IMG/VR virus record: IMGVR_UViG_3300042691_034899
Location: 16,849-80,848 of that record
From: a virus
Strand: one strand, 5' to 3'
Length of the DNA stretch: 64,000 nt
In this document: in pieces, positions 3,305 through 64,000 of the stretch
How positions within the stretch are numbered: position 1 is the first letter of the stretch
How the letters are laid out: every line of letters begins with the position of its first letter
Notes under the pieces: model-generated
Told to the model about the DNA's origin: nothing
Databases searched by the model: none
Seen by the model: the letters and a program-made list of their open reading frames with translations, nothing else
Made by a program: the position numbers and the translations under genes

Positions 3305-3320
3305 ATTTTTCCAAAAAGTA

Positions 3321-3352
3321 TTTGCAGATATTTACTTTTCTGTTTATATTTG
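3321..3352 (+). promoter_or_regulatory. Promoter TTTG-N20-TATATTTG for the structured RNA
   Basis: TTTG at 3321-3324 and TATATTTG at 3345-3352 with a 20-nt spacer match the Bacteroidetes promoter consensus. No ORF follows; the first downstream element is the RNA with long helices, so the promoter most likely drives a non-coding transcript starting near 3357. Confidence 0.7.
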
Positions 3353-3356
3353 CGGT

Positions 3357-3690
3357 TATATTCGTAAAAAAGTATAAAAAACATAGTGTGTTTTAGATTC
3401 AGTTTTGACACGTACAACTCAAAACTACGACTAATAGGGAACTATTCGGCAAAATAAAAAGCTCAGCTCTGCAACGCCTGCAACTGAGTCCAGCAGACCT
3501 TCGGGGGGATCGCCAGAATAGATACAAAAAAGCCATAGCAATTTGAAATTTTTAAAAATTGCTGAATAAATAAGAAATTGGTACTGGTAGTAGAGTGTCC
3601 CTTATTGGTTTAGTAACATAGTTTCTATGTGAAAATCTGGCGGGAGGGATTCTGCTGGTAATAAGGCGAAGCTATGCATTATAGGTAAAT
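3357..3690 (+). ncRNA. Candidate structured non-coding RNA with long nested helix and pseudoknot
   Basis: A gene-free stretch, locally richer in G+C than its surroundings, full of exact complementary segments. Hairpins: AGTTTTGA 3401-3408 with 3419-3426; AATAG/CTATT 3433-3446 with GGAA loop; AGCAATTT 3537-3544 with 3556-3563; ACATAG/CTATGT 3616-3630. Long-range nested helices: CGCCT 3475-3479 with AGGCG 3664-3668; CCAGCAGA 3490-3497 with TCTGCTGG 3651-3658; CGCCAGA 3511-3517 with TCTGGCG 3636-3642. CTCAG 3462-3466 with CTGAG 3484-3488 would make a pseudoknot with the outer helix. It has its own promoter, and recA downstream has another. I do not recognise it as RNase P, tmRNA or a group I intron. 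3' end approximate. Confidence 0.7.
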
Positions 3691-3725
3691 TTTTCGTAAA
3701 ATTTTAATTACTCGAAAAGTTTCAT

Positions 3726-3733
3726 TAAATTTG
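3726..3733 (+). promoter_or_regulatory. -7 element TAAATTTG upstream of recA
   Basis: TAAATTTG lies 14 nt before the recA ATG; a -33 TTG is not evident. Confidence 0.5.
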
Positions 3734-3747
3734 TAAAAAACCATAAA

Positions 3748-4725
3748 ATGAGTATATCTAAAGAATCTTTAAGTAAGCTTCAAAAACTATTTGGAAAAGA
3801 AGCAGTTATGACTTTAAACGAGTCGATTAATCTTGACATTGAACTCCTATCATCTGGATCTCTATTCTTGAACCACGCTTTAGGCGGAGGATTCCCTATG
3901 GGAAGAATCATTGAGATAGCTGGCCCAGAGTCTTCAGGAAAAACAACTCTAGCTATTCACGCTATTTCAGAAGCGCAAAAAGTTGGAAAGAACTGTGCGA
4001 TGATTGATGCTGAGCATGCATTCGATAAAGTCTATGCAGAAAACTTAGGCGTGAATACAGACGAGCTTCTAATCTCTCAACCTGATACAGGAGAACAAGC
4101 TCTTGACATAGTGGAAGCAATGATTGATACTGGAGAGGTTCAGCTAATTGTAATTGACTCTACCTCATCCCTTGTACCTAGAGCAGAGCTAGAAGGTGAA
4201 ATGGGTGACTCAGCTGTAGGACTACAAGCTAGGCTATTATCAAAAGCTTTAAGAAAGTTGACAGGAAAAGCAAAGAAAAATAATTGTCTTCTTATTTTCA
4301 TATCTCAGTTGAGAGAAAAAATTGGAGTTATGTACGGATCGCCAGAAGTTATCGGAGTTGGTAATGCGCTTAAATTCTATGCCTCTCAGCGGATTATTGT
4401 AAGAAAGTCTACTCAAGTTAGTGGAAAAGATGGCAACGGACCAGAGGGCAATCTAACTAAAGCTAAAGTTATTAAGAATAAAATCGCTCCTCCATTTAGA
4501 GAAGCTGAGTACACAATCAAATACGGAAAAGGTATTGACAAAGATGGCGAGCTTATTGACTTAGGAGTTGAAATGAATATCATAGAAAAATCTGGATCTT
4601 GGTATTCTTACCAAGGATCTAAATTAGGTCAAGGTAAAGAGAATTCACTTGCTTTACTTTTAGACAATCCAGAGCTTATGGAAGAGATTAGAGGACTTGT
4701 TGAAAAGGGACTTGCCAATCAATAA
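3748..4725 (+). CDS. recA: RecA recombinase (325 aa)
   Basis: Strand-exchange ATPase that coats ssDNA and drives homologous recombination and recombination-dependent replication. Bacterial-type RecA rather than T4 UvsX: Walker [10 protein letters not shown] near residues 58-66, Walker B LIVIDS near 134-139, the L1/L2 DNA-binding stretch with [17 protein letters not shown], and GNALKFYAS. It lacks the N-terminal extension and has a short C-terminal domain (325 versus about 350 aa in host RecA). It leads a rightward group with a GIY-YIG-like gene and SSB, and follows a structured RNA. Confidence 0.95.
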
Positions 4726-4736
4726 ATCAAATCTAT

Positions 4737-5165
4737 ATGTGGATATTTGAAAATAAACCTGTAAATTCTATTGATGATATAGACCCAAAAGCAATTGGGT
4801 TTATATACATCATAGTAGATGAAGATGGTAGGGAGTATGTTGGGCAGAAGTCTTTATATTCAAAAAGAAAGCGAAAGTTTGGTAAGAGAGAAGCTGCAGC
4901 TATCACTGATAAGAGAAAGAAGACTTATGAGTATATTGTAAAAGAATCTGATTGGCTTACTTATACTGGATCAAACAAAGAACTTAATGAAAAAATAAAA
5001 GAGGGTATTAAGTTTACAAAGCACATCCTAAAACTTTGCTACAATAAGAAGCAATTATCTTACTATGAAACAAAATATCTTATGATTAGAGAATCAATTG
5101 AGCCTGGGAATATGTCATACAATGGAAATATCTTAGGTAAGTTTTATCCTAAAGATTTACTATGA
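4737..5165 (+). CDS. GIY-YIG-like phage nuclease (142 aa)
   Basis: N-terminal FIYIIVDEDGREYVGQK corresponds to the GIY...YVG strands, followed by a basic stretch with conserved Arg/Lys and the ESDWLTYTGSNKELNE segment that I know from small phage GIY-YIG-like proteins. Probably a structure-specific or homing-type endonuclease, or a degenerate DNA-binding relative. It lies between recA and SSB and overlaps the next gene by 4 nt. Confidence 0.65.
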   Translation: MWIFENKPVNSIDDIDPKAIGFIYIIVDEDGREYVGQKSLYSKRKRKFGKREAAAITDKRKKTYEYIVKESDWLTYTGSNKELNEKIKEGIKFTKHILKLCYNKKQLSYYETKYLMIRESIEPGNMSYNGNILGKFYPKDLL

Positions 5166-8670: not shown

Positions 8671-10260
8671 ATGTCAAAACAAATTATTTTTAACAAGGAA
8701 GCAAGAGAAAAGCTTTTATCAGGTGCTGATAAATTAGCTGATGCCGTAAGAGTTACCCTTGGAGCTAAGGGTAGAAATGTTATGATTGGAGAAGGCATGC
8801 ACTCAGCGTTTGTTACTAATGATGGTGTAACAGTTGCTAGAGCTGTAGAACTTGATGATCCAATTGAAAATATTGGTGCGTATTTCTTAAAAGAAGCTGC
8901 ATCAAAAACAGAGGAAATGGCAGGAGATGGTACAACTACTTGTACAATACTAACTCATTCGATGCTTAAATTAGGGATGAAGTATCTAGCCGCCGATGCA
9001 AATCCGATGGATTTAAAAAGAGGAATGCACAAAACGCTAGAAAAACTTGTGTCAATGATTGATAAAGATTCTAAGAAGATCAGTATTAATAGTGATGAGT
9101 TACGACATGTAGCCACAATATCTGCTAACAATGATCCATTTATTGGAGACTTAATTGCAGAAGCTATTCATAGAGTAGGTAAATCTGGTATTGTATCTGT
9201 TGAGCAATCAACAAATATGGAAACTAGAATTGAAGTTGTTGAGGGTACTGAATTTGACAAGGGTTACATTCACCCCTACTTTATGACAAATGTAGAGAAG
9301 GAAAGAGCCGAGTTAGATAATGTATATGTCTTAGTTACTGATCACAAGATTTTTAGTATGCGTGAACTTCTTCCTATACTAGAAAAAGTTGGAAGAAGCA
9401 AACCCCTATTGATTATCTCTGACGAGATTGACTCTAATGTTGTTCCAACTATTATCTTGAATCACACACAGGGTATTGTAAATGTATGCTGTGTAAAAGC
9501 TCCAGGATTTGGAGACACAAGAGTAAGTATGCTTGAAGACATTGCAGCTATTACAGGTGCAGAACTTATCTCATCAAGTAAGAGTATGAAACTTGAGGAT
9601 GTTACATTAGAAATGCTTGGGTATGCTACTAAGGTTAACGTATCAAAAGATAGAACTACAATCATTGATGGCAACGGAGATGCAGATATTATTGAAGCAA
9701 GAATCAAACAAATAGAAAGCCTTATTCAAACTGAGGACGATGCATATGCAAAAGATAAACTTCAAGAAAGATTGGGTAGACTAACTGGAGGAGCTGCAGT
9801 CTTATTTGTTGGAGGGACAACAGAGACAGAAATGGAAGAGAAGAAGTATAGAGTAGATGATGCTTTATCTGCTACTAAAGCTGCTCTTGAAGAGGGTATT
9901 GTTCCAGGTGGTGGAGTAGAACTTGCTGTAGTTGGTCACAAATTCAATAAGGAAGCCTCAGACATCTTTTTAAATGACGATGAAAGACTTGGTGCAGAAA
10001 TAGTTTTAAAGTCTCTTAGAGAGCCTCTATATCAAATTCTTAAGAATGCTGGAATCAGTGGAGATAAAATCTATACTGATATCTGCGAAAGTGAAAGTGG
10101 AAAGATGGGTTATGATCTAAATAAGGATCAGTATGTTGACATGCTAGAAGCAGGTATTGTAGATCCAGCAAAAGTAACTAAAGCTGCATTGATGAATTCA
10201 ACATCAATTGCATCAATGATATTAACAACAGAAGCTATAATCGCTAAAAAACCAGAATAG
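8671..10260 (+). CDS. groEL: Chaperonin GroEL (529 aa)
   Basis: Full-length group I chaperonin. ATP site TLGAKGRNV near residues 29-37, NDGVTVAR (the Asp52 region), GDGTTT near 85-90 and the DALSATKAALEEGIVPGGG segment holding the ATPase Asp398 equivalent. It ends in IAKKPE and lacks the GGM repeat tail of bacterial GroEL. groES follows directly, the reverse of the usual bacterial groES-groEL order. Probably folds phage virion proteins. Confidence 0.97.
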   Translation: MSKQIIFNKEAREKLLSGADKLADAVRVTLGAKGRNVMIGEGMHSAFVTNDGVTVARAVELDDPIENIGAYFLKEAASKTEEMAGDGTTTCTILTHSMLKLGMKYLAADANPMDLKRGMHKTLEKLVSMIDKDSKKISINSDELRHVATISANNDPFIGDLIAEAIHRVGKSGIVSVEQSTNMETRIEVVEGTEFDKGYIHPYFMTNVEKERAELDNVYVLVTDHKIFSMRELLPILEKVGRSKPLLIISDEIDSNVVPTIILNHTQGIVNVCCVKAPGFGDTRVSMLEDIAAITGAELISSSKSMKLEDVTLEMLGYATKVNVSKDRTTIIDGNGDADIIEARIKQIESLIQTEDDAYAKDKLQERLGRLTGGAAVLFVGGTTETEMEEKKYRVDDALSATKAALEEGIVPGGGVELAVVGHKFNKEASDIFLNDDERLGAEIVLKSLREPLYQILKNAGISGDKIYTDICESESGKMGYDLNKDQYVDMLEAGIVDPAKVTKAALMNSTSIASMILTTEAIIAKKPE

Positions 10261-10509
10261 ATGAGAGCAATAAAAAATAAGTTAATTGTAAAAGTACAAT
10301 TGGAAGCAGAGAAATCTGAGTCAGGAATTATAGTTGATACAGAAAAGAAACCAGATAGAGGTATTGTAACCTCAATTGGAAAAGAGGTCACAGATGAGAT
10401 CAAAGTTGGTGACACAGTTGTCTTTAGTCAATTCGCTGGAAAAGCGGAGAAGATAGGAGAAGATAACTATGTCCTACTTAATGAGGGCGAGGTGTATTAC
10501 GCAATATAA
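10261..10509 (+). CDS. groES: Co-chaperonin GroES (82 aa)
   Basis: Starts one base after the groEL stop. Matches GroES: RAIKNKLIVK start, ESGIIV mobile-loop segment, RGIVTSIGKEV, VGDTVVFSQFAG, and the NEGEVYYAI end. At 82 residues it is shorter than host GroES (about 92-97), with a shortened mobile loop and no extended roof loop. Partner of the upstream GroEL. Confidence 0.93.
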   Translation: MRAIKNKLIVKVQLEAEKSESGIIVDTEKKPDRGIVTSIGKEVTDEIKVGDTVVFSQFAGKAEKIGEDNYVLLNEGEVYYAI

Positions 10510-25011: not shown

Positions 25012-25212
25012 ATGAAGACGTTTGTAATCGTAGATGAATTTGATAATCATTGCTTTAGTAATCATGAGTTTAATTCATACGAAGATGCTTGGGATTTTTT
25101 ATACGTTAAGTTTCCAGTCATTCGAAATGAAGATGGGACTCAAGATGACAGAGAAGAGGAATTAGATTCATATTTTGTAATATTAAAAACAAGTAACAAT
25201 GAAAACAATTGA
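25012..25212 (+). CDS. Hypothetical protein (66 aa)
   Basis: Not recognised. Acidic; overlaps the first MKTIEEKNRM paralog by 14 nt. Confidence 0.6.
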   Translation: MKTFVIVDEFDNHCFSNHEFNSYEDAWDFLYVKFPVIRNEDGTQDDREEELDSYFVILKTSNNENN

Positions 25213-25555
25213 AGAAAAAAACAGAATGATTTCTGAGTTTATGGGATACGAAACTTATGAACATACGAATAGTATATCCATAAGAATAACGGAAGGAAAC
25301 GAATTTAATTCCTCAGATATTGGACACGTACATACAAAATTCCACACATCTTGGGATTGGTTGATGCCAGTAATTGAGAAGATAGAAAGGTTGGGATTTA
25401 CTGTAGAGAAAAACTTTCAACCTATAGATAACGATTGGCAATGTCTAGTAGTAAAAGGTAACGATATATTGTTTCAGGAATTTAACGAGCAGTCAATACA
25501 AGCTATGCACTATGTGGTTGTTGAATTTATCGAAATGTATAACCAAAAAAACTAG
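25199..25555 (+). CDS. MKTIEEKNRM family protein, tandem copy 1 (118 aa)
   Basis: First of three tandem paralogs sharing the start MKTIEEKNRMISEFMG, the core SWDWLMPVIEKIE and the end YNQKN. The family occurs in Bacteroidetes phages and has no known function. Middle region differs strongly between copies. Confidence 0.75.
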   Translation: MKTIEEKNRMISEFMGYETYEHTNSISIRITEGNEFNSSDIGHVHTKFHTSWDWLMPVIEKIERLGFTVEKNFQPIDNDWQCLVVKGNDILFQEFNEQSIQAMHYVVVEFIEMYNQKN

Positions 25556-25559
25556 AAGT

Positions 25560-25868
25560 ATGAAAACAATTGAAGAAAAAAACAGAATGATTTCTGAGTT
25601 TATGGGTATGCAAGAGACTAAAATAGGATGGTATGACGCTGAAGAAAACCTGCCACTCGAATATACAACTGATAATACATTTGACGAGTTGTTATTTAAT
25701 AAGTCTTGGGATTGGTTGATGCCAGTAGTAGCTAAAATAACAAGGGATGAAGAATTCATTGATGATGATTTTAGAGAATCCGTATTAGATGTTGTTGGAT
25801 TTGGTCGTATAGATGATACCTATAGAGTAGTAGTAGAATTCATCGAAATGTATAACCAACAAAACTAG
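25560..25868 (+). CDS. MKTIEEKNRM family protein, tandem copy 2 (102 aa)
   Basis: Second paralog. The first roughly 45 nt are identical to copy 1, which suggests recent duplication or gene conversion. ATG 25560 chosen, 4 nt after copy 1; the longer frame overlaps copy 1. Confidence 0.75.
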   Translation: MKTIEEKNRMISEFMGMQETKIGWYDAEENLPLEYTTDNTFDELLFNKSWDWLMPVVAKITRDEEFIDDDFRESVLDVVGFGRIDDTYRVVVEFIEMYNQQN

Positions 25869-25872
25869 AAAC

Positions 25873-26229
25873 ATGAAAACAATTGAAGAAAAAAACAGAA
25901 TGATTGCAGAGTTTATGGGGTTCATAAAGGATGATGAGAATTTATACCTTATAAACGACTACAGACTCAGAAGTGAGTCAGAGTATCAAGCAACTTACGT
26001 TAGTGAAATGAAATTCCACATCTCATGGGATTGGCTTATGCCAGTAGTTGAGAAGATTGAGAACATTGGATTCAGCGTGAAGATTCAGCGACTTAAGACA
26101 AGCATTCACCCTCTAGTTGAAGACAAGGAGTTGTTTGGTTTTGTGTGCGGTGATGTATCTAAGAAACTTGAAATTACATACGACACGATTGTGCAATTCA
26201 TCGAATTTTATAACCAAAAAAACAAGTAA
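25873..26229 (+). CDS. MKTIEEKNRM family protein, tandem copy 3 (118 aa)
   Basis: Third paralog, start MKTIEEKNRMIAEFMG, core SWDWLMPVVEKIE, end YNQKNK. 4-nt gap from copy 2. Confidence 0.75.
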   Translation: MKTIEEKNRMIAEFMGFIKDDENLYLINDYRLRSESEYQATYVSEMKFHISWDWLMPVVEKIENIGFSVKIQRLKTSIHPLVEDKELFGFVCGDVSKKLEITYDTIVQFIEFYNQKNK

Positions 26230-34524: not shown

Positions 34525-34598
34525 GGTCCCGTAGCTCAGCTGGATAGAGCAACTGCCTTCTAAGCAGTAGGTCACACGTTCGAATCGTGTCGGGATCA
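34525..34598 (+). tRNA. tRNA-Arg (anticodon TCT)
   Basis: Acceptor GGTCCCG/CGGGATC, D arm GCTC...GAGC, anticodon stem ACTGC/GCAGT with loop CTTCTAA, T arm ACACG-TTCGAAT-CGTGT. Reads AGA, by eye the dominant Arg codon in these genes. CCA not encoded. Confidence 0.95.
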
Positions 34599-51049: not shown

Positions 51050-54000
51050 TTAATTCTCGTTTGAACCTTCTGGCTCATTGAAGCCTTCTTTGTTTACAAA
51101 TAGTAGTGTATGTCCTTTCTCACCATTAAAATATATGTATGAGTTTATCTGATTTTGAAGATCTGATAGTTGAGCTTGTCTTCTAAATAGTAATGTCTGT
51201 TTAAGAAGCCTACTAGGCTCGCCTTCTTTCCTCTCCTTTGTAAGACCTTTCCATAGATCTTCAACCATACGCATCTGTACAACTGGTTGTTTGTAGATCT
51301 CAGCAAATGTCCCTGGTATACCTATGATGTTTTGAGATTGACTTTCTGATGTTGTTCTTAACGCAATTAACTGTGCTAAATTTTCAACTGCTGTATCATC
51401 GTCATCATCTCCAGTTAATAAGGCATTTGTAAGGAATACTAGAATCATGATACCAATCGCATCAACACCAACTCTTCTTAGATTTGTTTTTTCATGCTCT
51501 TCTAAAACAGCGTTTAATTTTGCGGCTTCATCTTTTGCGAATCTAGACGAAACTAGTTTACCAAAACTTCTTAAAAGTCCAGAGTAATGTCCGCTATCAA
51601 ATTGTCCAGTAGACAAATTAAATTGTTTTCCTTTAAACTTACGAGTTAGGTTTATAATAAAGTAACCTCTGTGAAGTAAAAGTGCATTAGCAATAGCATC
51701 ACGTTGAGCAGCAGTCTTATCAGCCTCAGATATTACAGAGTCAACACTTTGATTTATCTGATTCATCTTAACAATAATCTGATCACTAATAAATCCAAAC
51801 TCTTCATCTGCTCTATCTTGATATTTATCAGCAAATTTCTGGTTATAATTTACTCCTGTTTCAGGATCAATTGTAATGTTGCTATAGAATGTATCTGTAT
51901 TAGCTTTCCATAACGCATCTATTTCACTCTTACTTATGTCCTTCTTATTCATTCTCATGTCTCTTGAGAAGTCATTGTAAGACTTAAAGAATCCATTGTG
52001 GTACTTATAGTCATGAAGTAATGTAAGCATATTCTTAGGAGTAACTGGTAAGTTAGCAAGTCTAGACGCTGCGAAGAATGATCTATTTGCCATCCTAACA
52101 CCCCTCATATATCCAGAATCTGCTAATCTAACTTCAGCTTCATTGATTCCAAAGAATTCCATCAAGTGACTAAGTTCAGAAGTTTTCTTCATACTTCCAG
52201 ATTCAGATACGTATTTAGCTATCATAAGTGGAAGTTGTGTGGTAGCTTTTGCTACACTTGACTTGTGATAAAACTCTCCTGATGCAGCATCAATTAAGTT
52301 GTTGTATACACCAGTTGTATAAGATGTGATATCAGTGATTGGATTCAAGGCAAGGTTTACGTTTCTTACATATGTTGTCAATCTATTAAACAACTGTGTG
52401 AAATCTACCTCTCTTCCAAATACATTGGCTATGAGTTGTCTGTTTTGTCTTATACCATACAAGTGGTAGTCAGCCATTTCTTGAGCCTTATCATAATAAC
52501 CAGATACCTCTCCCTTCTTAAGTACTCTTGACTTAAATGTATTTCCTCCACTATTCTTAAATTTCTGTTGAGATATTTTGTACTCAATAGCCTTTATATC
52601 TCGTTCAGCTTTTAACCTTTCTGTATATCTTATGGAAGATTTTAAATCAACCATGATAGCCTCCAAAGTACTTTCAGTTACTAAAGAAGGATCTTCTAAA
52701 AGTTCTTGATAGTATTTAGGTATTACTTTGATATTAATACCAGTGCCTTCAACTTGTTCACCATATTCTTTCTCATCTATTTTTGATTGAGCAATATCTG
52801 TAAAGAAATCTTTTACACTTGCGCCTAAGTTTCCTCTATGGACAGTTAAAGCTTTCTCCATAGTGTTTTTAGAAATCTGTGGTCTTTGGTATTTATTCCC
52901 TACCGCTTGGTTTCCATAATTGTCAATAGACATCTGTCTTAGATTTGTCATCTTGACAAGGAATTCGTATTCTTCAATATTCTTAGTTGCAGTAAGTTTA
53001 GATATATCCTCATCTTCCAATGCAAGATAGGCCTCTTCACTTATACCATACCTATTAAAGAACTCTTTATTTAACTTTTGAGGCTGATTCATTTGACCCT
53101 TTGCCTTAAAGTTAGGGTTGATGTATTCTTTATTGTTTACATCTTCACTCCAAGAATATTCAGGAGTTATATCAATAAATCTAAGAGCAGGAAACTTTGC
53201 AATAGCTGCTTGCTTATTGTTAAAGAATTCAGACATAGGCACTTCTCCAGATCTTAAAGCTTCAATAGCTTCTGTATAACCTTGTGGTTGAAATCTTTTA
53301 AAATAACTCGCTACATTTCTTTTAGCATATTCATCTTTCAATGTTTCTATAATCTCAGATACAGTCTTCCCTTCAAGCCTTCCTTCTTCAGCCATCTGAG
53401 CTACAAAATCATCGTAGTTTCTTTTTATGTATGTCCGCTTACCCTTTATGTAGTCATCGATTTGCATAGCAAACTCTTGAGTCCTAACCTTATTTCTATC
53501 AGACATGTGCATAAGAGAGAAGTCAAATACTGATTTCCCACTTTCAATTAACATCTTCTGGAAGTCCTCATTTAACTCTACCTCAGTAGATTCTAGAGAT
53601 CCTGTCTCTTCTAGAATTTCATAAGGAATACCAAGTGAAATTCTTATATCAGCAATTTCTCCATCCAAATCTTGAAGTGTCTTTTTTGTCTGTGTTGTCA
53701 TGCCATGGGCATCAACTTCTATAGAACTCTTAGGACTTTTGTTTTGCTTAAGTATTTCTTTTCTTTTTCTTTGAGTTTCAATCAAATCATTCAACAAAAC
53801 TTGCTTTAAAAATCTAGTTTCATCATCCTCAATCTGATTAATATAATTTTGAGCTACATCATTGAATGTTACAGGCGTTCCTAAGTTGTCGTAAAACTCA
53901 CTGTTAAGGCCCATTGAAGCATTGGATATTACCCAGTCATAAGCTATTTCTCCACTATCTTCTATTTCTTTTATGTTATCAAGAAACTGTTGAATAGGGT

Positions 54001-56830
54001 TATTATTCCTAGCTTTAGATTTTAGCTCTTCCCGATATATCATATCAAGATTAAATAAGTCTAAAGCTCTTCTTGATTCTATTGGAAGATCTTCTATGTT
54101 TTGACCATCCTCTAATATTGTAAGTTCACCAATAAAATCTGGATCTAATTCAAATGGAAGATTAGCAATTTGATCTGGAGTTAACTCAGAAACTCTTACT
54201 CTTTTAATTCCAGACTTTAAATTTCCAGATGCGTCATACGCACTCTTTACCGCAAGGTGTTGTCTGAATTCACCTCTATCTTCGATTCTTTCAGACTCTG
54301 TTTGTTCACTAAGATCTATTGTACCATCTGGTCTTACATACTTTTTTCTTCTAGCTAATCTACCAATATTCTTTTTAGAAAGGTAATCTCTAGTTTCTTT
54401 TGACACATTTGCTTTATCAAATCTAGCGTCTCTTTCTTTGTAGTAAGCATCTGTAAATCTTCTTTCCTTACCAACTTCATCCTTCCAGTTTTTTACCTCT
54501 TCAAGATAATCTGCATAAAGAGTTTCGTCTTTTATTATCTCGGATATAGTTAACGTATCTCTAAGCTTTTCTACTTCTGTAGCAGTTTTACCTGACATTC
54601 TAGCTATAACCTCATTCTGCTTCTTTCTAAGTTCAGAGTCATACCATGCGTAATCTCTTGGTGATAAGAAGTAGTTAGTTAACTTACCATTTGCATCTCT
54701 GTGAATAATGCTTCTACCATATTTATTTAAACCTCTTCTATCAATGTCAGCTATCTCTCTATTCATAATAGAGTTAAACTTTCTATTTGTATTTGAAGCA
54801 ATCTTAGTAACAGCAATTGACATTAACTGCATGGCCAAGTTCTTACTATGACTTGAAAGGCCAAACATCTTTCCTAAGAATCCAATGTCTCTAAAGTTAC
54901 CTTCAAGACTAGCTCTAATTTCAGCTCTTTGCTCATCTGTTACAGAGAAGTGATCTAGCATTTTCATCAACATCCTGTCAACAAATGATAACTTATCCGT
55001 ATTCATAAGTGGACTTACTCTTGACATCTTGATAGGAAGCTGCTCAGATGCAGTTATCAAATCATCTGTTCTCTTAAGTAGTTTAGGATCTGTAACGCCC
55101 ATCTCAGCTGCCTTACCTTTTAGTTGAGATATGATATTCTCAATTGTTGGTAGCATGTTGTTTTTTAATATCTCATACCTATGAGTATCTTTTGTTGAGA
55201 ATAGTTCATTATTTCTAGAAGACTCTGCGATATTCTCCGCTAATACGTTCAACTGATTCTCTGCAATTCCAACAATAGTATTTACAGAACTTAAGATATC
55301 GATGTAACCATTGGTTTCAATCATCTTATCTAAGTCGGCCTGATTAGGTGTTGGCTGTTCTAATGCTCTTGAAAATAAGTCTTCTACTATTCTTTTTGCA
55401 ATACCTAGTTCATCTTCGATAGCTCTACTATCTTGACTCATTGCACTGTAAAAGAAGTTATCCTCTTCTGTAAACTCTGTTTGGAAGTCTTCCATATTTT
55501 TAGAGAATACACTGTCAGCTATTCTTTTATTCAGATCATCTATTGCGGACCTGTGAAATGCTTTTGTATTATTAGACAGAAGATTTGAGAACCAGTCCCA
55601 CAAATTACTTAAGAAATTTATGACAGAAGACTGTTGTGGAGTTTTACCTTCAGTGCTAAATCTGTTTTGGAATTCTCTACTAAGGATCTTACCAAGTATC
55701 TCTTTGTTTACTCGATCTTCTAATTCTTGACCTTTAAAAAACTCAGAGTATTTGTTCCTGTAGTACTCACTAAACTCAGCATACTCTTCAGTCATGTGTA
55801 CATTTCGAAGAGCTTCAGCTATAGAGTTCTGATCAGAATAAGCTTCAATAGCTATGTGAGCTACCTCCTCGCTTAAATCCTCAATTGTTATCCTCCCTTC
55901 AGCAAATGCAACAACTCTATTTGATAAATCTGCTATTGCTTGAATGTCAGCATCCTGACCGTACCTTGTCTTATATGATTTTCTATATGCTTCTAATGTA
56001 GTTACTGAAAATCCAAGGCTCTCAAGAAATGCAAAGAGAGAATTCTCCATTGCTTTTAAATCAGCTGGCGTAGCTTCTTTTTTATTTGATACAACAGTTA
56101 ATGGCCTTGGATTATCATGCTCAACCATGAACTCAACCATAAGATCAGCTGCATTTTCTACATCTGGATTTTCTTTAATGTATTCAGGAATCTGCTCAGT
56201 TCTAAGTACTTCAGTAGTCCCATCGGCATTCATAGCTTCAGTGTACCCAACAGAGAACTCAATATCTATAGTCCCATCTTTATTTACATTGACTCTTCCA
56301 TTACCAGTTTCTGCTGCTAAGTCATTAGCTACGAAAAGTGATGTTACTACTCTTGTTGTAACGTACTCTCCTTTTCCTTTAAATCTAGTAACTCCATCTT
56401 CTCCAAGAACCCTATCTGCTGAAAGAAGCCCTTCTCTTACCTTTGATGCAAGAAATTCATTACGCTCACTTCCTTTTGTTGTGAACTTTGCAACTGGCAT
56501 ATACTCACCATCTTTAGGGTTTTTGAATCCCATAGATACATCACCGAAGTCTTCATTTATAAGAAGTTCTTCTAGATTGTCATATTCCTTGTTACTGGAA
56601 GCTCTATAATAAAGTAGTGGTTCTCCAGTATCGTATTTATTCATATCCGACTCAGAGAACATTTGCTCTACTTTATCTGTAAAAGCATTTGTATAAATTT
56701 TCAAAGATGTCTCAGCATCAGCTAAAAATATATTGGAGTGAATTGCATCAAATAGTTTTGATCTTACTCCATCTTTAGTAAGTACTTCGTTTATCTTTCC
56801 GTCATCGGTTCTGTTTATGAGACAAGCCAT
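51050..56830 (-). CDS. Giant probable internal virion protein (1926 aa)
   Basis: Mostly helical, charged. Near residue 315-325 LSEEVAHIAIEAY looks like a degenerate zincin (ExxxH without HExxH). A long coiled-coil middle follows. Residues about 1510-1600 (VNLALNPITDITSYTTGVYNN) start a more compact C-terminal part; near 1790-1815 a membrane-like helix MILVFLTNALLTG is followed by DDDDD. This build fits phage inner-core or ejection proteins that form a DNA channel. No RNA polymerase DxDxD motif seen. Confidence 0.7.
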   Translation of the reverse strand: MACLINRTDDGKINEVLTKDGVRSKLFDAIHSNIFLADAETSLKIYTNAFTDKVEQMFSESDMNKYDTGEPLLYYRASSNKEYDNLEELLINEDFGDVSMGFKNPKDGEYMPVAKFTTKGSERNEFLASKVREGLLSADRVLGEDGVTRFKGKGEYVTTRVVTSLFVANDLAAETGNGRVNVNKDGTIDIEFSVGYTEAMNADGTTEVLRTEQIPEYIKENPDVENAADLMVEFMVEHDNPRPLTVVSNKKEATPADLKAMENSLFAFLESLGFSVTTLEAYRKSYKTRYGQDADIQAIADLSNRVVAFAEGRITIEDLSEEVAHIAIEAYSDQNSIAEALRNVHMTEEYAEFSEYYRNKYSEFFKGQELEDRVNKEILGKILSREFQNRFSTEGKTPQQSSVINFLSNLWDWFSNLLSNNTKAFHRSAIDDLNKRIADSVFSKNMEDFQTEFTEEDNFFYSAMSQDSRAIEDELGIAKRIVEDLFSRALEQPTPNQADLDKMIETNGYIDILSSVNTIVGIAENQLNVLAENIAESSRNNELFSTKDTHRYEILKNNMLPTIENIISQLKGKAAEMGVTDPKLLKRTDDLITASEQLPIKMSRVSPLMNTDKLSFVDRMLMKMLDHFSVTDEQRAEIRASLEGNFRDIGFLGKMFGLSSHSKNLAMQLMSIAVTKIASNTNRKFNSIMNREIADIDRRGLNKYGRSIIHRDANGKLTNYFLSPRDYAWYDSELRKKQNEVIARMSGKTATEVEKLRDTLTISEIIKDETLYADYLEEVKNWKDEVGKERRFTDAYYKERDARFDKANVSKETRDYLSKKNIGRLARRKKYVRPDGTIDLSEQTESERIEDRGEFRQHLAVKSAYDASGNLKSGIKRVRVSELTPDQIANLPFELDPDFIGELTILEDGQNIEDLPIESRRALDLFNLDMIYREELKSKARNNNPIQQFLDNIKEIEDSGEIAYDWVISNASMGLNSEFYDNLGTPVTFNDVAQNYINQIEDDETRFLKQVLLNDLIETQRKRKEILKQNKSPKSSIEVDAHGMTTQTKKTLQDLDGEIADIRISLGIPYEILEETGSLESTEVELNEDFQKMLIESGKSVFDFSLMHMSDRNKVRTQEFAMQIDDYIKGKRTYIKRNYDDFVAQMAEEGRLEGKTVSEIIETLKDEYAKRNVASYFKRFQPQGYTEAIEALRSGEVPMSEFFNNKQAAIAKFPALRFIDITPEYSWSEDVNNKEYINPNFKAKGQMNQPQKLNKEFFNRYGISEEAYLALEDEDISKLTATKNIEEYEFLVKMTNLRQMSIDNYGNQAVGNKYQRPQISKNTMEKALTVHRGNLGASVKDFFTDIAQSKIDEKEYGEQVEGTGINIKVIPKYYQELLEDPSLVTESTLEAIMVDLKSSIRYTERLKAERDIKAIEYKISQQKFKNSGGNTFKSRVLKKGEVSGYYDKAQEMADYHLYGIRQNRQLIANVFGREVDFTQLFNRLTTYVRNVNLALNPITDITSYTTGVYNNLIDAASGEFYHKSSVAKATTQLPLMIAKYVSESGSMKKTSELSHLMEFFGINEAEVRLADSGYMRGVRMANRSFFAASRLANLPVTPKNMLTLLHDYKYHNGFFKSYNDFSRDMRMNKKDISKSEIDALWKANTDTFYSNITIDPETGVNYNQKFADKYQDRADEEFGFISDQIIVKMNQINQSVDSVISEADKTAAQRDAIANALLLHRGYFIINLTRKFKGKQFNLSTGQFDSGHYSGLLRSFGKLVSSRFAKDEAAKLNAVLEEHEKTNLRRVGVDAIGIMILVFLTNALLTGDDDDDTAVENLAQLIALRTTSESQSQNIIGIPGTFAEIYKQPVVQMRMVEDLWKGLTKERKEGEPSRLLKQTLLFRRQAQLSDLQNQINSYIYFNGEKGHTLLFVNKEGFNEPEGSNEN

Positions 56831-56851
56831 CTTATAATTTATATTTAATAA

Positions 56852-57544
56852 TTAGACACAATCTTCACACGTATTGTATGAAGGCCATGTTATAGTTGGG
56901 TTTAATCCTGTTGTATGTTGAAATGTATAGCAGTTTCCATTATTTGCTAACATAACAATTCCTGTTACATTAACACCTGACAGTACGCTAACGATTTCAA
57001 ATTCATCTGTAGTTCCACATCTTAGTACTACATACTTTGTAAATTCTACTCTTGGTTGAGGAGATGGTGGTGGAGCTGGTGTACATTCGTCACCACACAA
57101 TCCTGGATAAACTGGTTCTGGAACGCAGCTAGGAGCTTTATCTTCTCTAAGATCACAAGTGTAATTGATCATCTGTTGAAAGGTTCTTCTTCCAACAAGC
57201 TTCATTTTCTGACCACTCTTTACAGCATTTAAATCTACAGAGGTAGTTGAATTTCCATCAAGTCTTTGTATTTGATAATAATACCTTTGAGCAGTATAAG
57301 AATTTATTCTTTTTATTACTCTGTAAAGTAAGCCTAGACTTCCTACTTGAAAAACTTCTCCATCGTCTAACTGATCCAATGTTCCAATGTAAGTTTTAGA
57401 ACCTACCTTATTCATTGTCTCAGTGACTTTAGTTACTACAACTCTTACTGTATGAGCCATTGTAAAGTCAGAGATCGACATGTCTACACCAGGTAGCATA
57501 GACCTCTTTAATATTATTTTATCTTTATCTTCGTTATGCTCCAC
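56852..57544 (-). CDS. Hypothetical virion-associated protein (230 aa)
   Basis: Lies between the two giant genes and overlaps the upstream one by 11 nt. Beta-rich; middle has a Pro/Cys segment (LCGDECTPAPPPSPQPR) joining two domains; ends in NTCEDCV. Not recognised. Confidence 0.65.
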   Translation of the reverse strand: MEHNEDKDKIILKRSMLPGVDMSISDFTMAHTVRVVVTKVTETMNKVGSKTYIGTLDQLDDGEVFQVGSLGLLYRVIKRINSYTAQRYYYQIQRLDGNSTTSVDLNAVKSGQKMKLVGRRTFQQMINYTCDLREDKAPSCVPEPVYPGLCGDECTPAPPPSPQPRVEFTKYVVLRCGTTDEFEIVSVLSGVNVTGIVMLANNGNCYTFQHTTGLNPTITWPSYNTCEDCV

Positions 57545-60500
57545 AGTCGTTTATATCTTTAAGAATCTCTGCTTCTTCTTTTGTTGAATACAAATCTAAT
57601 AATTCTAATCGAGAATCAAAAATAGTTGCAATATTTTCTACACTTTTTGATGGAGATACTTCCATAAAGGTTACAACTGGTTTTGTTCCATCTTCAACTG
57701 TAAGCTGAGTAGCTATCCATTCATTTCCTGCGTTGTCTGTTACTACAGTAGCATCTGGCCTATTTGTTTTGAACAACTCATTTAGCTCTTCATATTTTCT
57801 AAGAACTGTTTGCTGCTCACTACTCATATCATCAATATCAAAATCTTCTATGTTTGTTGCTAATAAAGCATAACCATCTGGTTGATTAAATATCTCAGTA
57901 TTAATACTATCGAATGATACTAATGCGTCTCCATCGTACCATCCATAAATAGTATATCCGAAATCCTCAAGGAATTGCTGTGCAGTACCAGTAGTTCTCT
58001 CGAAATAATTTTCTAATTCAAATTCAAGTGCATCTTCAGTGAAGTAGTAACTTTTAGTTTCTAAAGTTCCAACAAATTCATTAGCTTCAGTTTCAGAATC
58101 AAGCTCTCCAACTGTTTCTCCTGGTTGTCCTAATAATTCAGTGTCAATAACTCGCCATGTATTATCATCTACTTGAGCAATTTCATATCTAGAGTATCTA
58201 AATTTTTCCAGATTAAGATTTGGTAATATCGAATATCTATAATCACTAATAGATTCTAACTTATCTATTGTATATACTTTTTCATAGTCTATAAAATCCT
58301 CTACTTCAGATTTAGAGTTTCGGACTTGTTCATATATGTCATCGCTTCTTAAATCATAAGGATTAACCCAATATACATTATCAGAATTTGCTACTTCTAT
58401 TATTGAAGAATCAGAGTAAGTAACAAAGTAAGTAGTTCCAGCATATTCAATTTGATCTCCTGGCTCTAGATAGTTTTCATTGCCTCTAACTATTTCATAT
58501 GGTGCGTTTCCTTCAGGCTCTATATAACCTTCAATAAGTGCTAGTGTTCTTGGAGTTGGAATTCTTAACTCTTTCATACCAAGCTCTGCACTTCTTTTTA
58601 TCTCTTCTCTTAAAAGCCTTTCTGTATAGTTCTTTCTATGAGCAATAAATTGCTTATCTCTTAGTGATGCAGCATCAAGAAGTTTATCTTCTAATTTTGT
58701 AACTTCTCTTGAAGCATTGAAGAAATTAGCATACGCTTTAGGATCTACTTTTACTTCTTCTAAAGTTTCTTCTTTGTATCTATCGAAAGCTTCTTCTATA
58801 GAGTAGAATTCTACATCATCTGTCTTTAATCTATATGATCTCAAAGGTACAACTTCAAACTTTATTTCAGCATCTAATGGAAGGTCATTTACTGCTGGAC
58901 TTCCTGCTATTTTGAATATATAAGCTGACCAATACTTAGAATATTCTGCATTTAATTCTTTTAACTCTTCATTAATTGAATCATACTTTGCTTGATCTTC
59001 TTCATTTAGAATACCTTCTTTCCAATATTTGTTTTCTAAAACTTCTATCTCGTTTTCAAGTCTGTCATAATCTCTGTTATTTCTAACTTCAGCTTGAGCA
59101 TCTTTGAGTCTACCTATTTGTCTATCTAATTCTGCAAGATTTTCAGGTGTCCTTCCTTTGTCTTTTAAAAGTATTAACTCTAAACCTAAATCTTGTCTCT
59201 TTTCAAATGCTTCTTTAGCTCCAAGCTTGCTTACAATAGGAAGCTCTTTTTCTAATACACTAATTAATTCAGATAATTTTATTCCTTTCTCTCTTTTTTT
59301 GAATAACTCATTTAAAGTTGGGTAATCTTCAATTCTAAAGTCTCCTATATCAACTGCTTTAAATGTTTCTTCTATTTGTTCTAATACGTAATCAAAATCA
59401 GATGTTATCTTACTTATAGTTGAACTTGGTTTTCTATCTTTTTTTAGTTCAAAGGCTATTCCAACTCTATTTATATATCTAGTAGCTTCTTCATTGCCTA
59501 ATTTTATTTTGTAAGATCTTGTATTTTTTTCTATTATATCTATTTCATTAAAAGGTAATTGAATAGCCCCTATTTGATTAGTAAATGATCCTGGATCATC
59601 GTTTGTCCAACTAACCATTTCTGGAAGAGTTACCTCTTGACCCTTAGCAATATTCATTAATTGCTCTAGCTTTTGTTTGGTAAGTTTAACTCTCCTCGTT
59701 TGAGCACTAGACTCCATACTAGACATGAACCGATTATAGTGAGACTCTGGAGATTTATCTCTATCTCCGTATAGATCTACAAACTTTTTCTTTTGTTCTT
59801 CAATTGAAGCTTCAGTTCTAGCTATATATGCCATTGTTTCGGAGATCTCTTCCGATAACTCTTTTACATTTTTATACTCACCTTGATTCTTTTTCGCCTT
59901 ATCAATGATCTGCTTATTCTCTTGTATCTTAGCGAATATAGGTTTCTGAGCTTCTGTAAGTCTACTTGAATCAGAGTTATAAGATGCTAGTAATAAATCT
60001 GTAGCTTTAGCTTTTTGATAAGAATCAGATTGGAACTCTGCTCCGTATGCTATGCCTTCTTCGTTATTATACCACATTCTTGAGTGACCAAATAGACCTT
60101 TATTTATACTTCTAGCATTATCATAATTGTCTATCCATGCCTGTGCTCTTTCTCTAGATGAAGCTGCGTTGTATACTTTTTCGTTTATATTTTCATTCGT
60201 AAGTACAGCATCTTGTTCGACAACAAAGAATGTGCCTTGCATTTCTCTTATTTCAAAATCAATACCCTCAGCAGCTTCAAAATCTGGTCTAAAATGTCCT
60301 GTTGCTTGATGGTCTAAATCAGTATTGAATATGTGAGTTTCATATTTTGTAGCTCCAGTGTCTACATTACCTGATCCATAAGAAGCGTATGTAGAAGATA
60401 CAATAACTTTTAGTGGCATCATTCTAGCATTTACCTCAGCTTTGAAATCATCAAAAGGTATTTTATCTTTTCCTTTGAAGTATTCTAATTCAAGAACTTC

Positions 60501-63500
60501 GTTTATGATATCCTTCTCGATTTTCTTTGTTGAAGCTTGATTCAATACTTGCTTTATCGTTTGTATGTTAACAAGTTTTCCTTCCTTGTTAGCAAGCATC
60601 TGGTCAAGTAACGCTGGAACTGTGTAAGTGGTAGTTGAGAATTCCTCATCTCTTAATAAGTCAATAGCTACTGCATATGCAAACTGATCTAATGTCAAAT
60701 TAGAAACTTGGTTTGGATCCATTTGAGTAAGTCCTACAGCATTCTTTATACTTGTCCACAGATCAATTAAGAATTGTTTGAAATTATTATACTTAGTCTT
60801 ATTGATAAAAGATTCTCCTTGGTTTCCAATTGCTGTTACTAAAGCTTCTTCTAGTATCTTATCTTCAGAATAATTGAAGTAAACACTATTTCTGTCTTTA
60901 GATCTTTCGAGAATATCATTATAATACTCAGAATCTTTTACTAGATCTGTACCTCTTTTATATAAATCAGGTCTTGTGTCTCTAGCCCACTTTGCCCACA
61001 AATGCCCATACTCATGTATTGGAGTATTGTAGTTTAGCATGTCTGGATTAATGTATAGGTCATCTCCTAATAAGAATCCAGCGATTTGATTTGGAGTAGC
61101 GTTTGACCTATTTTCCGTATTAGCTGCTCTAAGACCTTTGCTAAAATCTGCCTTCTCAACAAATGTTCTTCCTTTAAGTAAACCTGTATTGTTAAGTCTT
61201 ACAGCAATTGCTGTAAAAGCTTCTCTTGGAACTATCTGTGCTTCTTTTATAGAATCAGGTGCTTGACTGAAAGCTATAGCTTGTTCTATCTCTACAGCAT
61301 TTTCATCAAATACAACATAGTTAAAACCTCTAGCTGTATCAGATGTTACTCCACGAGATACACTTTCGGCAGGATATTTTATACCATCGATATTGTTTTT
61401 AAGTAGAAACAGAGATGTGTCTTTATCGCTGCGATTTAATAAACTACTTAAATCTCTATATACCATTTGCCCTGTTGTTGTCTCTCTTAATAGTGAACGT
61501 ATGTAAAACGCATCAGAGATATTTACTCCAATTTCATCAGACAGGTCCATAGCATCATCTACACTAATATCATTTAAGCCCCCTTCTATTAACTTATTTA
61601 ATTTATCATTTGATATGTTTTTCTCTTTAACAAATGATTGTAATATTTTATTTCTTTGCTCATAAGGCACAGGTTTATCCCACTCTAACCAAGTGTATTG
61701 ATCAGGTGTTTTTTTATTTTGTAGAGTTACTCTGTAAAGATTTCGACTAGCTACTCTTTCTACTTTTTTACCTTCTATGCTCGGTAAATGACTTAAAATT
61801 TTTTGAGACATACTTTCGGAATAATAGTCTCCATCTTCTATTCTTCTATATACACCTTCTATTCCAATTTCTGAAACACCAAAAAGAGTTTCAAATAACC
61901 CCCCATTGGTTTCTTCATCTTTTGATAAGTCTACTTTTTGACCATCTATTGTAAACTGAACTCTTGACAAAGAGGTTGCGTAACTTCTTGCAATACTTTC
62001 TAGATCAGTAAAATATAACCCCCAACCAAATGCTTGAGCACCTTCTCCAGTTCCAATCTTTTCCGTTTTAAATCTTTCGAATCTATAAGGTGATCCATGC
62101 CAAGCAGATATTTGGAATCTTGGTCCTTGTTTTCTTTCTGCTACTTTGAATCCTCCAGCAGTAGTTGGAACAAGTAGCCCTTCTAATCTTGAGAATACAC
62201 TTTCAGCTGCTTGTGTTCTTACTTTGGCTGGATAGAATACTTTATCTTCTTTTTGAACTTTATCAAATAATCTTAAATAGAGTTCCGTTGCGATCCCTTT
62301 ACCCCTATGTATTTCAGCTACTGATATCTGCTCATCTGCAAATCCGTCTTCTGTTTTTGTAAGTCGTATTGATCCAACACGTACTCCATCTTTATACGCA
62401 ACAATAGAATTGTTTACTTCAAAGAATGTATAACTCTTGTCTTTAAGTGTTGAGAATTCCTTGAGGTTTACGCTCATCTCATCATTTACTCTTGATCTAG
62501 CTACTACACTTTTAAATGTAGTGTAATCAGATGTATTATTTGCTGGAGCACTATACCTATCAAACACTTTTGATGCTAGATTTCTATCGAACTCAAAGTT
62601 TAGATTCTTAGTATAGTATTTTGAATCACCTCTCTTTGGAACTTTTACAAACAACTTTCCAGCTTCCCTGTCTAATCCAACTCTGTATAAGTCTCCATTT
62701 ATTTTTATGAAGTTATCAGAAGTATTTGGTGTAATTACAAAATCTCCAAGCATTACAAAGTCTCCTTCGTACTCAGATTTTGCTTCAGGAAAGTTTGTAT
62801 AATACAGATCTTCAGAAACTATTTCATTTGTTGGAGGCACAAGATACTTCATGTTAGAATCTTTCTGAAGTCTAATATAATCTTCAAGTTGTGCCTGAAG
62901 CTCAATACCCTCAATCGAAGGTATAGTATCTGTTAGTGTAATATCCCTATCTGTTATTTCAAACTTAGATAGTATGGTTTTATATGTAGTAGTGTTTGCT
63001 GCCTTCTCTCTTAGTATATAGTTGTAGAAGTCACTTACAAATGATGACTTTAAGTAGTTCTCATCTGTCTTTATAACAGCAAGGTCTTTTGCTTCACTTA
63101 ACTTTGATGGAAGTGCATCATGATCAAATAATACTTGATACGCTGAGTAGAGCTCTTTATTTCCAAGGCCTTGTATAGTCTGTCTTGACATCAAGTATCT
63201 TGAGATATCGTTTAGTACAGAAGGCTTATTGTTTATATCCTTGGTAAGCATATACTCAGAAGGGATACTCATTCTTCCTTTTGCTATTTCATCATAAAGG
63301 TAGTCAATCAAGTCCATCACATTTGCGTCTTGATTCACTTTATGGAATAGATTGTCTCCTACTTTAATAAGCCCATGAGAATTGAATAATTCATTTTCTG
63401 GAACTTCTGTGTGTAGACTAACTATGTTGTATGCTGTATATTTATTTGGAATGTTTTCAACAACTACTGTATCTTCAACAGGCATTATTGCCATTAAGCT

Positions 63501-64000
63501 ATCTGAGAATGTTCTTACATTTGCTTCTGTAGGTTGGTTAAGCATCTCATTAGCTGTTTCTATTACAGCCATTACCTCTGCCCTCATTCCTGGAAATTCT
63601 GAGATACCTACAACATCAACATTGAAATTTGTAAATTCATTCTCAACTTCTTTCAATACTGATCGGATAAGCTCTGGATTTGATTGCCAGATATCCTCAT
63701 CAATAGAATTGAGATAGTCTATCTCAGCCTCAATCTTTGTTGTGTCTTGATTAGCTGGTAAAGTATTCTTTACAGTAGTATAAACTTTGTTGTTATTACT
63801 TGTCAGCTCACCGTTAACAAAAGATAATTTAGGAATTCGCTTTAATCCACTAAAACGATTGATGATAGTGTTGGCAAAGTCATTGTCCTCTAAGAATCTA
63901 TTTACAAAGTCCTCATAAGGAAGCTCCTTTATTTTGTTGTAAAAATCCTCAATGTTGTTAAAATCTGTAACTTTTAGGAATATCGCATTGTCAACTTCAT
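57534..64000 (-). CDS. Giant polyvalent protein: GNAT + ADP-ribosyltransferase + zincin, 5' end outside window
   Basis: More than 2150 residues; no stop occurs between 57534 and the window edge, so the true start lies beyond 64000 (the TTG at 63656 is internal). Domains from the N-terminal side: GNAT acetyltransferase with EIHRGKGIATELYLRL near 62290-62320; polyvalent-type ADP-ribosyltransferase with WHGSPYRFERF near 62080-62110 and GEGAQAFGWGLYFTD; metallopeptidase TPIHEYGHLWAKW (HExxH) near 61000-61025; then over 1000 residues of coiled-coil. Such multi-domain effectors are known in phages and conjugative elements and are thought to be injected with the DNA. Clustered with another giant virion-like gene. 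Confidence 0.8.
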   Translation of the reverse strand, partial: EVDNAIFLKVTDFNNIEDFYNKIKELPYEDFVNRFLEDNDFANTIINRFSGLKRIPKLSFVNGELTSNNNKVYTTVKNTLPANQDTTKIEAEIDYLNSIDEDIWQSNPELIRSVLKEVENEFTNFNVDVVGISEFPGMRAEVMAVIETANEMLNQPTEANVRTFSDSLMAIMPVEDTVVVENIPNKYTAYNIVSLHTEVPENELFNSHGLIKVGDNLFHKVNQDANVMDLIDYLYDEIAKGRMSIPSEYMLTKDINNKPSVLNDISRYLMSRQTIQGLGNKELYSAYQVLFDHDALPSKLSEAKDLAVIKTDENYLKSSFVSDFYNYILREKAANTTTYKTILSKFEITDRDITLTDTIPSIEGIELQAQLEDYIRLQKDSNMKYLVPPTNEIVSEDLYYTNFPEAKSEYEGDFVMLGDFVITPNTSDNFIKINGDLYRVGLDREAGKLFVKVPKRGDSKYYTKNLNFEFDRNLASKVFDRYSAPANNTSDYTTFKSVVARSRVNDEMSVNLKEFSTLKDKSYTFFEVNNSIVAYKDGVRVGSIRLTKTEDGFADEQISVAEIHRGKGIATELYLRLFDKVQKEDKVFYPAKVRTQAAESVFSRLEGLLVPTTAGGFKVAERKQGPRFQISAWHGSPYRFERFKTEKIGTGEGAQAFGWGLYFTDLESIARSYATSLSRVQFTIDGQKVDLSKDEETNGGLFETLFGVSEIGIEGVYRRIEDGDYYSESMSQKILSHLPSIEGKKVERVASRNLYRVTLQNKKTPDQYTWLEWDKPVPYEQRNKILQSFVKEKNISNDKLNKLIEGGLNDISVDDAMDLSDEIGVNISDAFYIRSLLRETTTGQMVYRDLSSLLNRSDKDTSLFLLKNNIDGIKYPAESVSRGVTSDTARGFNYVVFDENAVEIEQAIAFSQAPDSIKEAQIVPREAFTAIAVRLNNTGLLKGRTFVEKADFSKGLRAANTENRSNATPNQIAGFLLGDDLYINPDMLNYNTPIHEYGHLWAKWARDTRPDLYKRGTDLVKDSEYYNDILERSKDRNSVYFNYSEDKILEEALVTAIGNQGESFINKTKYNNFKQFLIDLWTSIKNAVGLTQMDPNQVSNLTLDQFAYAVAIDLLRDEEFSTTTYTVPALLDQMLANKEGKLVNIQTIKQVLNQASTKKIEKDIINEVLELEYFKGKDKIPFDDFKAEVNARMMPLKVIVSSTYASYGSGNVDTGATKYETHIFNTDLDHQATGHFRPDFEAAEGIDFEIREMQGTFFVVEQDAVLTNENINEKVYNAASSRERAQAWIDNYDNARSINKGLFGHSRMWYNNEEGIAYGAEFQSDSYQKAKATDLLLASYNSDSSRLTEAQKPIFAKIQENKQIIDKAKKNQGEYKNVKELSEEISETMAYIARTEASIEEQKKKFVDLYGDRDKSPESHYNRFMSSMESSAQTRRVKLTKQKLEQLMNIAKGQEVTLPEMVSWTNDDPGSFTNQIGAIQLPFNEIDIIEKNTRSYKIKLGNEEATRYINRVGIAFELKKDRKPSSTISKITSDFDYVLEQIEETFKAVDIGDFRIEDYPTLNELFKKREKGIKLSELISVLEKELPIVSKLGAKEAFEKRQDLGLELILLKDKGRTPENLAELDRQIGRLKDAQAEVRNNRDYDRLENEIEVLENKYWKEGILNEEDQAKYDSINEELKELNAEYSKYWSAYIFKIAGSPAVNDLPLDAEIKFEVVPLRSYRLKTDDVEFYSIEEAFDRYKEETLEEVKVDPKAYANFFNASREVTKLEDKLLDAASLRDKQFIAHRKNYTERLLREEIKRSAELGMKELRIPTPRTLALIEGYIEPEGNAPYEIVRGNENYLEPGDQIEYAGTTYFVTYSDSSIIEVANSDNVYWVNPYDLRSDDIYEQVRNSKSEVEDFIDYEKVYTIDKLESISDYRYSILPNLNLEKFRYSRYEIAQVDDNTWRVIDTELLGQPGETVGELDSETEANEFVGTLETKSYYFTEDALEFELENYFERTTGTAQQFLEDFGYTIYGWYDGDALVSFDSINTEIFNQPDGYALLATNIEDFDIDDMSSEQQTVLRKYEELNELFKTNRPDATVVTDNAGNEWIATQLTVEDGTKPVVTFMEVSPSKSVENIATIFDSRLELLDLYSTKEEAEILKDINDCGA

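Follow-up and report, generated by a model that had tools for sequence, protein, structure and literature searches.

What does a phage encode in about 330 nt without a gene, placed between its late operon and recA? We addressed this question for positions 3357-3690 of a 64,000-nt stretch of DNA, here called the window, which corresponds to bases 16849-80848 in a virus record of 80.8 kb. The capsid protein of the window shares 34-38% identity with its counterparts in csAssE-Sib and in two Cellulophaga phages of the genus Lightbulbvirus, phi17:2 and phi4:1; the source is a marine phage, distant kin of the crAss-like viruses, and its host probably belongs to the Bacteroidota. The reading that we favour, with moderate confidence, is that the locus specifies a stand-alone, trans-acting structured RNA of ~300 nt from a family that has not been described before.

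Proposed borders and promoters of the locus

The gap between a 76-aa gene and recA (3305-3747) is without a credible gene. Within 3357-3690 no protein frame is evident, all plus-strand frames being interrupted by stops, and the three homologs described below have no open frame in common, in agreement with the initial annotation, which had taken the region to be gene-free. The G+C content of the RNA is 0.39 vs 0.21 and 0.17 in the flanking DNA. The borders that we propose are as follows.

3321..3352, plus strand: promoter of the Bacteroidota type, TTTG-N20-TATATTTG, exact; predicted +1 at 3357
3357..3711, plus strand: inferred transcription unit of the RNA, from the sequence and a comparison of three downstream regions; 3' end uncertain
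3381..3676, plus strand: conserved structured RNA, present in the window, L001 and L068
about 3684-3711, plus strand: candidate terminator, an A/T-rich hairpin and T-run; weak in L068
3726..3733, plus strand: recA's own promoter, -7 box TAAATTTG; predicted +1 at 3738, leader of ~10 nt

The upstream promoter had already been proposed and is found exactly as described; transcription is predicted to start at 3357 because, according to the Flavobacterium spacing rule, the G of the -7 box lies at -5 (PMC6847099). Sites of the TTTG/TATATTTG type number 13 in the window against 2.8 expected, a count reached by none of 100 shuffles; an excess of this kind is what the Bacteroidota sigma factor sigma-ABfr would lead one to expect (PMC7366714; PMC6847099). 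A TATATTTG box precedes the RNA in all three homologs and the -33 element is present in the window only, while the window and L001 have ~24 nt of unconserved leader 5' of helix P1. We infer that the RNA is transcribed separately, from its own sigma-ABfr-type promoter, and that the transcript would end before recA.

As the RNA lies ~70 nt upstream of recA and on the same strand in 3/3 members, it might instead be a cis-acting leader, the fold of which responds to a signal or a protein and regulates recA at the level of transcription or translation. However, recA has a putative promoter box of its own just before the ATG, as had been claimed at the outset for the window; L001 carries a full TTTG-N19-TATATTTG at the same position and L068 a near-consensus box. 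Furthermore, an A/T-rich hairpin stands between the RNA and recA, an expression platform was not recognised, and in sister phages recA is found without the RNA, the slot being occupied by a protein gene or by nothing. Since recA has its own promoter and does without the RNA in sister phages, the leader reading is weakened and we consider it unlikely.

Conservation and covariation

The three homologs were reached via RecA, RNA-model and DNA-pattern searches. L001, found by the RecA search (RecA 88%), carries the RNA at about 4649-4929 with 76% identity to the window, and a covariance model (R1) built on the window and L001 alone matched L068 (record G035; RecA 69%) with 149.7 bits and an E of about 1e-38, the RNA lying there at about 1504-1810 with 66% identity. 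Third codon positions of recA are 51% (L001) and 43% (L068) identical to the window, and over bases 3381-3428 the identity is 100% and 85%, respectively. In all three phages the RNA occupies the same slot, after the 76-aa gene and upstream of recA on the plus strand. Patterns of the conserved elements run against 2.9 million viral contigs returned no member beyond these three; likewise, covariance searches covering about 70 whole records of related phages (many phage records being partial) gave no further member and blastn against phage and plasmid collections no additional homologs. Six further pattern matches in viral contigs were rejected as apparent chance hits inside coding regions.

The initial annotation had named a lack of covariation, or a poorly conserved spacer, as grounds for giving up the RNA; we applied this test, and the RNA passed. 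With the pseudoknot counted in, a model of 64 pairs has 97.4% of its cells paired and 16 doubly changed pairs, compared with 5.6 (sd 1.8) in column shuffles, of which 0 in 500 reach the observed number; slid controls of this model are 34-43% paired, with at most 4 doubly changed pairs. In the curated twelve-helix fold, with a single broken cell, double changes are seen at 22 of 72 pairs, or at 21 after dropping one because a P6b pair in L068 overlaps P6; for these counts the alignment had been adjusted to the structure, and the 72-pair table was selected by eye. The power of covariation is limited because n = 3 sequences, and at P1 and P2 the supporting pairs are all unchanged or changed on one side. 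GU/UG cells (22) outnumber CA cells (2), which favours the plus strand. Folding-energy z scores are unremarkable (-2.0, -3.6 and -0.4 for the three homologs), in part because the energy tool cannot fold pseudoknots, and the case for a structured RNA rests on conservation and covariation rather than on folding energy. Compared across these phages, 3381-3676 is well supported as a structured non-coding RNA, and not spacer, with regard to both the RNA and its fold.

The predicted fold

The model comprises a closing helix P1, a hairpin P2, an adjoining P3/P4 pair that holds P5, the pseudoknot P6, and the hairpins P7 and P8.

3382..3395, plus strand: 5' strand of P1a/P1b, partners 3671-3676 and 3662-3667
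3401..3426, plus strand: hairpin P2, 8 bp, loop CACGUACAAC, within the block 3381-3428
3429..3440, plus strand: 5' strand of P3, 12 bp with one bulge, partner 3598-3610
3442..3450, plus strand: 5' strand of P4, 9 bp, partner 3512-3521 with A3515 bulged
3462..3488, plus strand: hairpin P5 (CUCAG/CUGAG) with inner P5b (UGCA/UGCA), 1 + 2 doubly changed pairs
3490..3502, plus strand: 5' strands of P6 (8 bp, 3490-3497/3651-3658) and P6b (4-5 bp, partner 3644-3648)
3512..3521, plus strand: 3' strand of P4, from the curated pair table
3537..3563, plus strand: hairpin P7, 4 of 5 counted pairs doubly changed
3564..3588, plus strand: conserved strand GAAUAMAUAAGAAAU(U)GGUMCUGGUA, nearly invariant in 3/3 and unpaired in the model
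3598..3610, plus strand: 3' strand of P3, from the curated pair table
3616..3630, plus strand: hairpin P8, 2 doubly changed pairs
3644..3658, plus strand: 3' strands of P6b and P6, from the pair counts
3662..3676, plus strand: 3' strands of P1b and P1a, from the pair counts

P4 is the clearest helix, with CUAUUCGGC, CUCUCUAUC and CUCUUCAAC each keeping nine pairs, five of them doubly changed, and in P3 four of five inner pairs are doubly changed. P6 (CCAGCARA/UYUGCUGG) has 8/8 pairs in all three phages, one doubly changed, and doubly changed pairs are also present in P6b; as P6 links the interior of P4 with sequence lying 3' of P3, the core is predicted to be pseudoknotted. Changes in P1 are one-sided only (GC to GU, UA to UG), with one broken cell, and covariation is silent at P2 because its pairs never vary. 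The sequence of P7 is rewritten in each phage, the hairpin always abutting the first part of the conserved strand, GAAUAMAUAAGAAAU. Both this strand (3564-3588) and the P2 loop are largely unpaired, and their conservation is about as strict as that of the helices. In L068 an additional stretch, which includes a small hairpin, lies between P4 and P5, an interval of the kind at which peripheral insertions are frequent in structured RNAs. A GACAC/GUGUC loop pairing was rejected, being lost in the homologs.

With respect to the helices first drawn for the window, the four local hairpins (3401-3426, 3462-3488, 3537-3563 and 3616-3630) are present and conserved. Among the long-range helices, the 8-bp pairing 3490-3497/3651-3658 is retained as P6, whereas the 7-bp CGCCAGA/TCTGGCG (3511-3517/3636-3642), exact in the window, is absent in both homologs and its 5' bases belong to P4. 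The pseudoknot had been sought between CTCAG/CTGAG and the outermost helix; instead, it is P6 against P3/P4 that appears to form it.

The outer shape had also been likened to 6S RNA, which has a long-range closing helix and a general size range similar to those of this RNA, and a 6S-like RNA that binds host RNA polymerase would fit a phage take-over of transcription. 6S RNA (RF00013), which binds RNA polymerase and templates pRNA, is, however, a rod whose central bubble imitates an open promoter, while the core predicted here is pseudoknotted; RF00013 gives no match, and the rod had been drawn in part with the unconserved 7-bp helix. We hold the 6S-like reading to be highly improbable.

Comparison with known RNAs

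Rfam 15 (4227 families) was searched with the criterion that the covariance-model score be at least the gathering cut-off, and at this level the whole window returned two tRNAs only; ARAGORN found the same number, at 34525 and 34765, and no tmRNA, the hallmark of which is a tRNA-like domain with a tag frame, in the window. For the RNA region, a search at E<=10 gave three chance snoRNA/lncRNA matches far below the cut-off, and the L068 and G001 regions gave no match at E<=1. The proposal that the RNA is undescribed is borne out by these searches, and a literature search that covered few subscription papers found no paper describing such an RNA.

The catalytic RNAs deserve separate mention. RNase P RNA is of similar size and has a long-range pseudoknot helix inside its closing helix, and the order of strands (closing helix, outer helix, hairpin, pseudoknot strand) recalls it in outline, a likeness that is a lead only; a pseudoknotted core with conserved unpaired strands would suit a self-cleaving ribozyme or a distant relative of RNase P or group I introns. 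Against this, Rfam ribozyme, RNase P and intron models were all without a match, for RNase P even at E 10, the helices differ in the details of their order, inspection by eye did not show the conserved RNase P regions, and there is no interrupted gene. A ribozyme is, in our view, very unlikely.

Phages are known to encode stand-alone structured RNAs, and a covarying fold without a protein frame, one criterion for this kind, is what we observe at this locus; a discrete transcript, the other, would follow from the predicted promoter. GOLLD and ROOL are large structured phage-encoded RNAs of this kind that form RNA-only complexes, GOLLD often exceeding 800 nt (PMC12286853). The RNA of the window resembles them in being phage-encoded, structured and, by our reading, stand-alone; in contrast to these larger RNAs, which are in Rfam, it measures ~300 nt, lacks an Rfam match and is found in three phages. 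The family and its fold thus appear to be new, although the broad kind is already known.

The slot upstream of recA in sister phages

Terminase and portal genes lie in a late operon on the minus strand and the recA side is on the plus strand, with the RNA at the point of divergence and a skew switch at 2-4 kb of the window. This position recalls phi29 pRNA, likewise a phage RNA encoded near packaging genes, and might indicate a packaging or replication RNA. Yet the skew follows gene orientation across the whole window, the RNA is larger than pRNA and has no Rfam match, and sister phages (partial records; capsid about 57-73% identical) with homologous capsid and recA genes show no match to it. 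The missing match in sister phages makes a core function unlikely, and for packaging or replication we see little more than an outside chance.

The slot, from the 76-aa homolog to recA, varies in content. It holds a 414/459-aa protein in G036 and G044, a 311-aa protein in G037, other proteins in G040 and G041, nothing in G045, and in G039 and G042 a non-coding block of 245 nt that is rich in G+C and has a promoter-like box of its own. Such rapid turnover points to accessory cargo rather than a core phage function, and from gene content we read the locus as an accessory slot. The 76-aa neighbour was rejected as a dedicated partner, since its homologs occur in relatives without the RNA; the homolog in G036 is inverted.

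The 414/459-aa proteins (L090:2118-3362 and the minus strand of L176:2467-3846; 36% identical) have no usable Pfam or PADLOC match, and a weak N-terminal match of one to the TIGR01765 transposase N-domain (E=0.074) is a hint of a degenerate TnpB-like protein. This match bears on the idea of a guide or scaffold RNA (omega-, tracr- or retron-like, its protein being encoded elsewhere in the phage or by the host) or of a mimic such as an RNA anti-CRISPR, as does the 36-nt block 3390-3425 (GTTTTAG...CAAAAC), which by eye resembles a type II repeat. However, TnpB/Cas12f (PF07282) and reverse transcriptase (PF00078) are absent from G000, G001 and G035, of which G000 and G035 are partial, in searches that detected the controls. 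The repeat core, searched with two free positions and so missing diverged repeats, has 7 lone matches in 84,980 genomes, about as expected by chance and none in an array, and L068 has lost the repeat:anti-repeat pairing that can be drawn for both the window and L001. A guide or mimic is quite unlikely on this evidence.

The 245-nt block of G042 (L182:850-1100) and G039 (reverse complement of L181) has a TAnnTTTG-type box just 5', a long rod-like predicted fold, no Rfam match and a z of about -1.9. G038 (reverse complement of L177, about 650-1180) contains another long, non-coding-looking block with no evident similarity to the others.

Possible function and relevance

If the RNA is indeed a stand-alone, trans-acting molecule, its knotted core would present the P2 loop and the conserved strand 3564-3588 to a host or phage protein, and it could serve during infection as an RNP scaffold, a decoy or an inhibitor; as accessory cargo it might act in host take-over or counter-defence. 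More tentatively, we speculate that it stands for a new functional class, an accessory pseudoknotted RNA that, acting alone or together with a host protein that it has captured, puts a host process or defence out of action.

Were this so, this phage clade would keep a store of such RNAs in the variable slot upstream of recA, and two further lineages carry different non-coding G+C-rich blocks there. A slot with RNA-like or protein cargo provides a direct route for seeking RNA-based means by which Bacteroidota phages take over the host or counter its defences. It is uncommon for a new class of pseudoknotted RNA to be backed by covariation, and the function of a phage RNA is known in few cases; the present RNA offers a testable secondary structure, two putative conserved recognition elements and a predicted start site, and its three sequences may serve as a seed alignment for further members.

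Other features of the window

Immediately behind recA lies a SegE-type GIY-YIG endonuclease (PF19835; 4737-5165), with similar frames likewise behind recA in L001 and L090. Positions 8671-10509 encode a phage GroEL homolog (Cpn60_TCP1, E 7e-75) followed by an 82-aa GroES-like frame, and 25199-26229 three tandem 118-aa paralogs with MKTIEEKNRMI(S/A)EFMG in common. Two giant frames of 1926 and 2040 aa occupy 51050-63656 on the minus strand.
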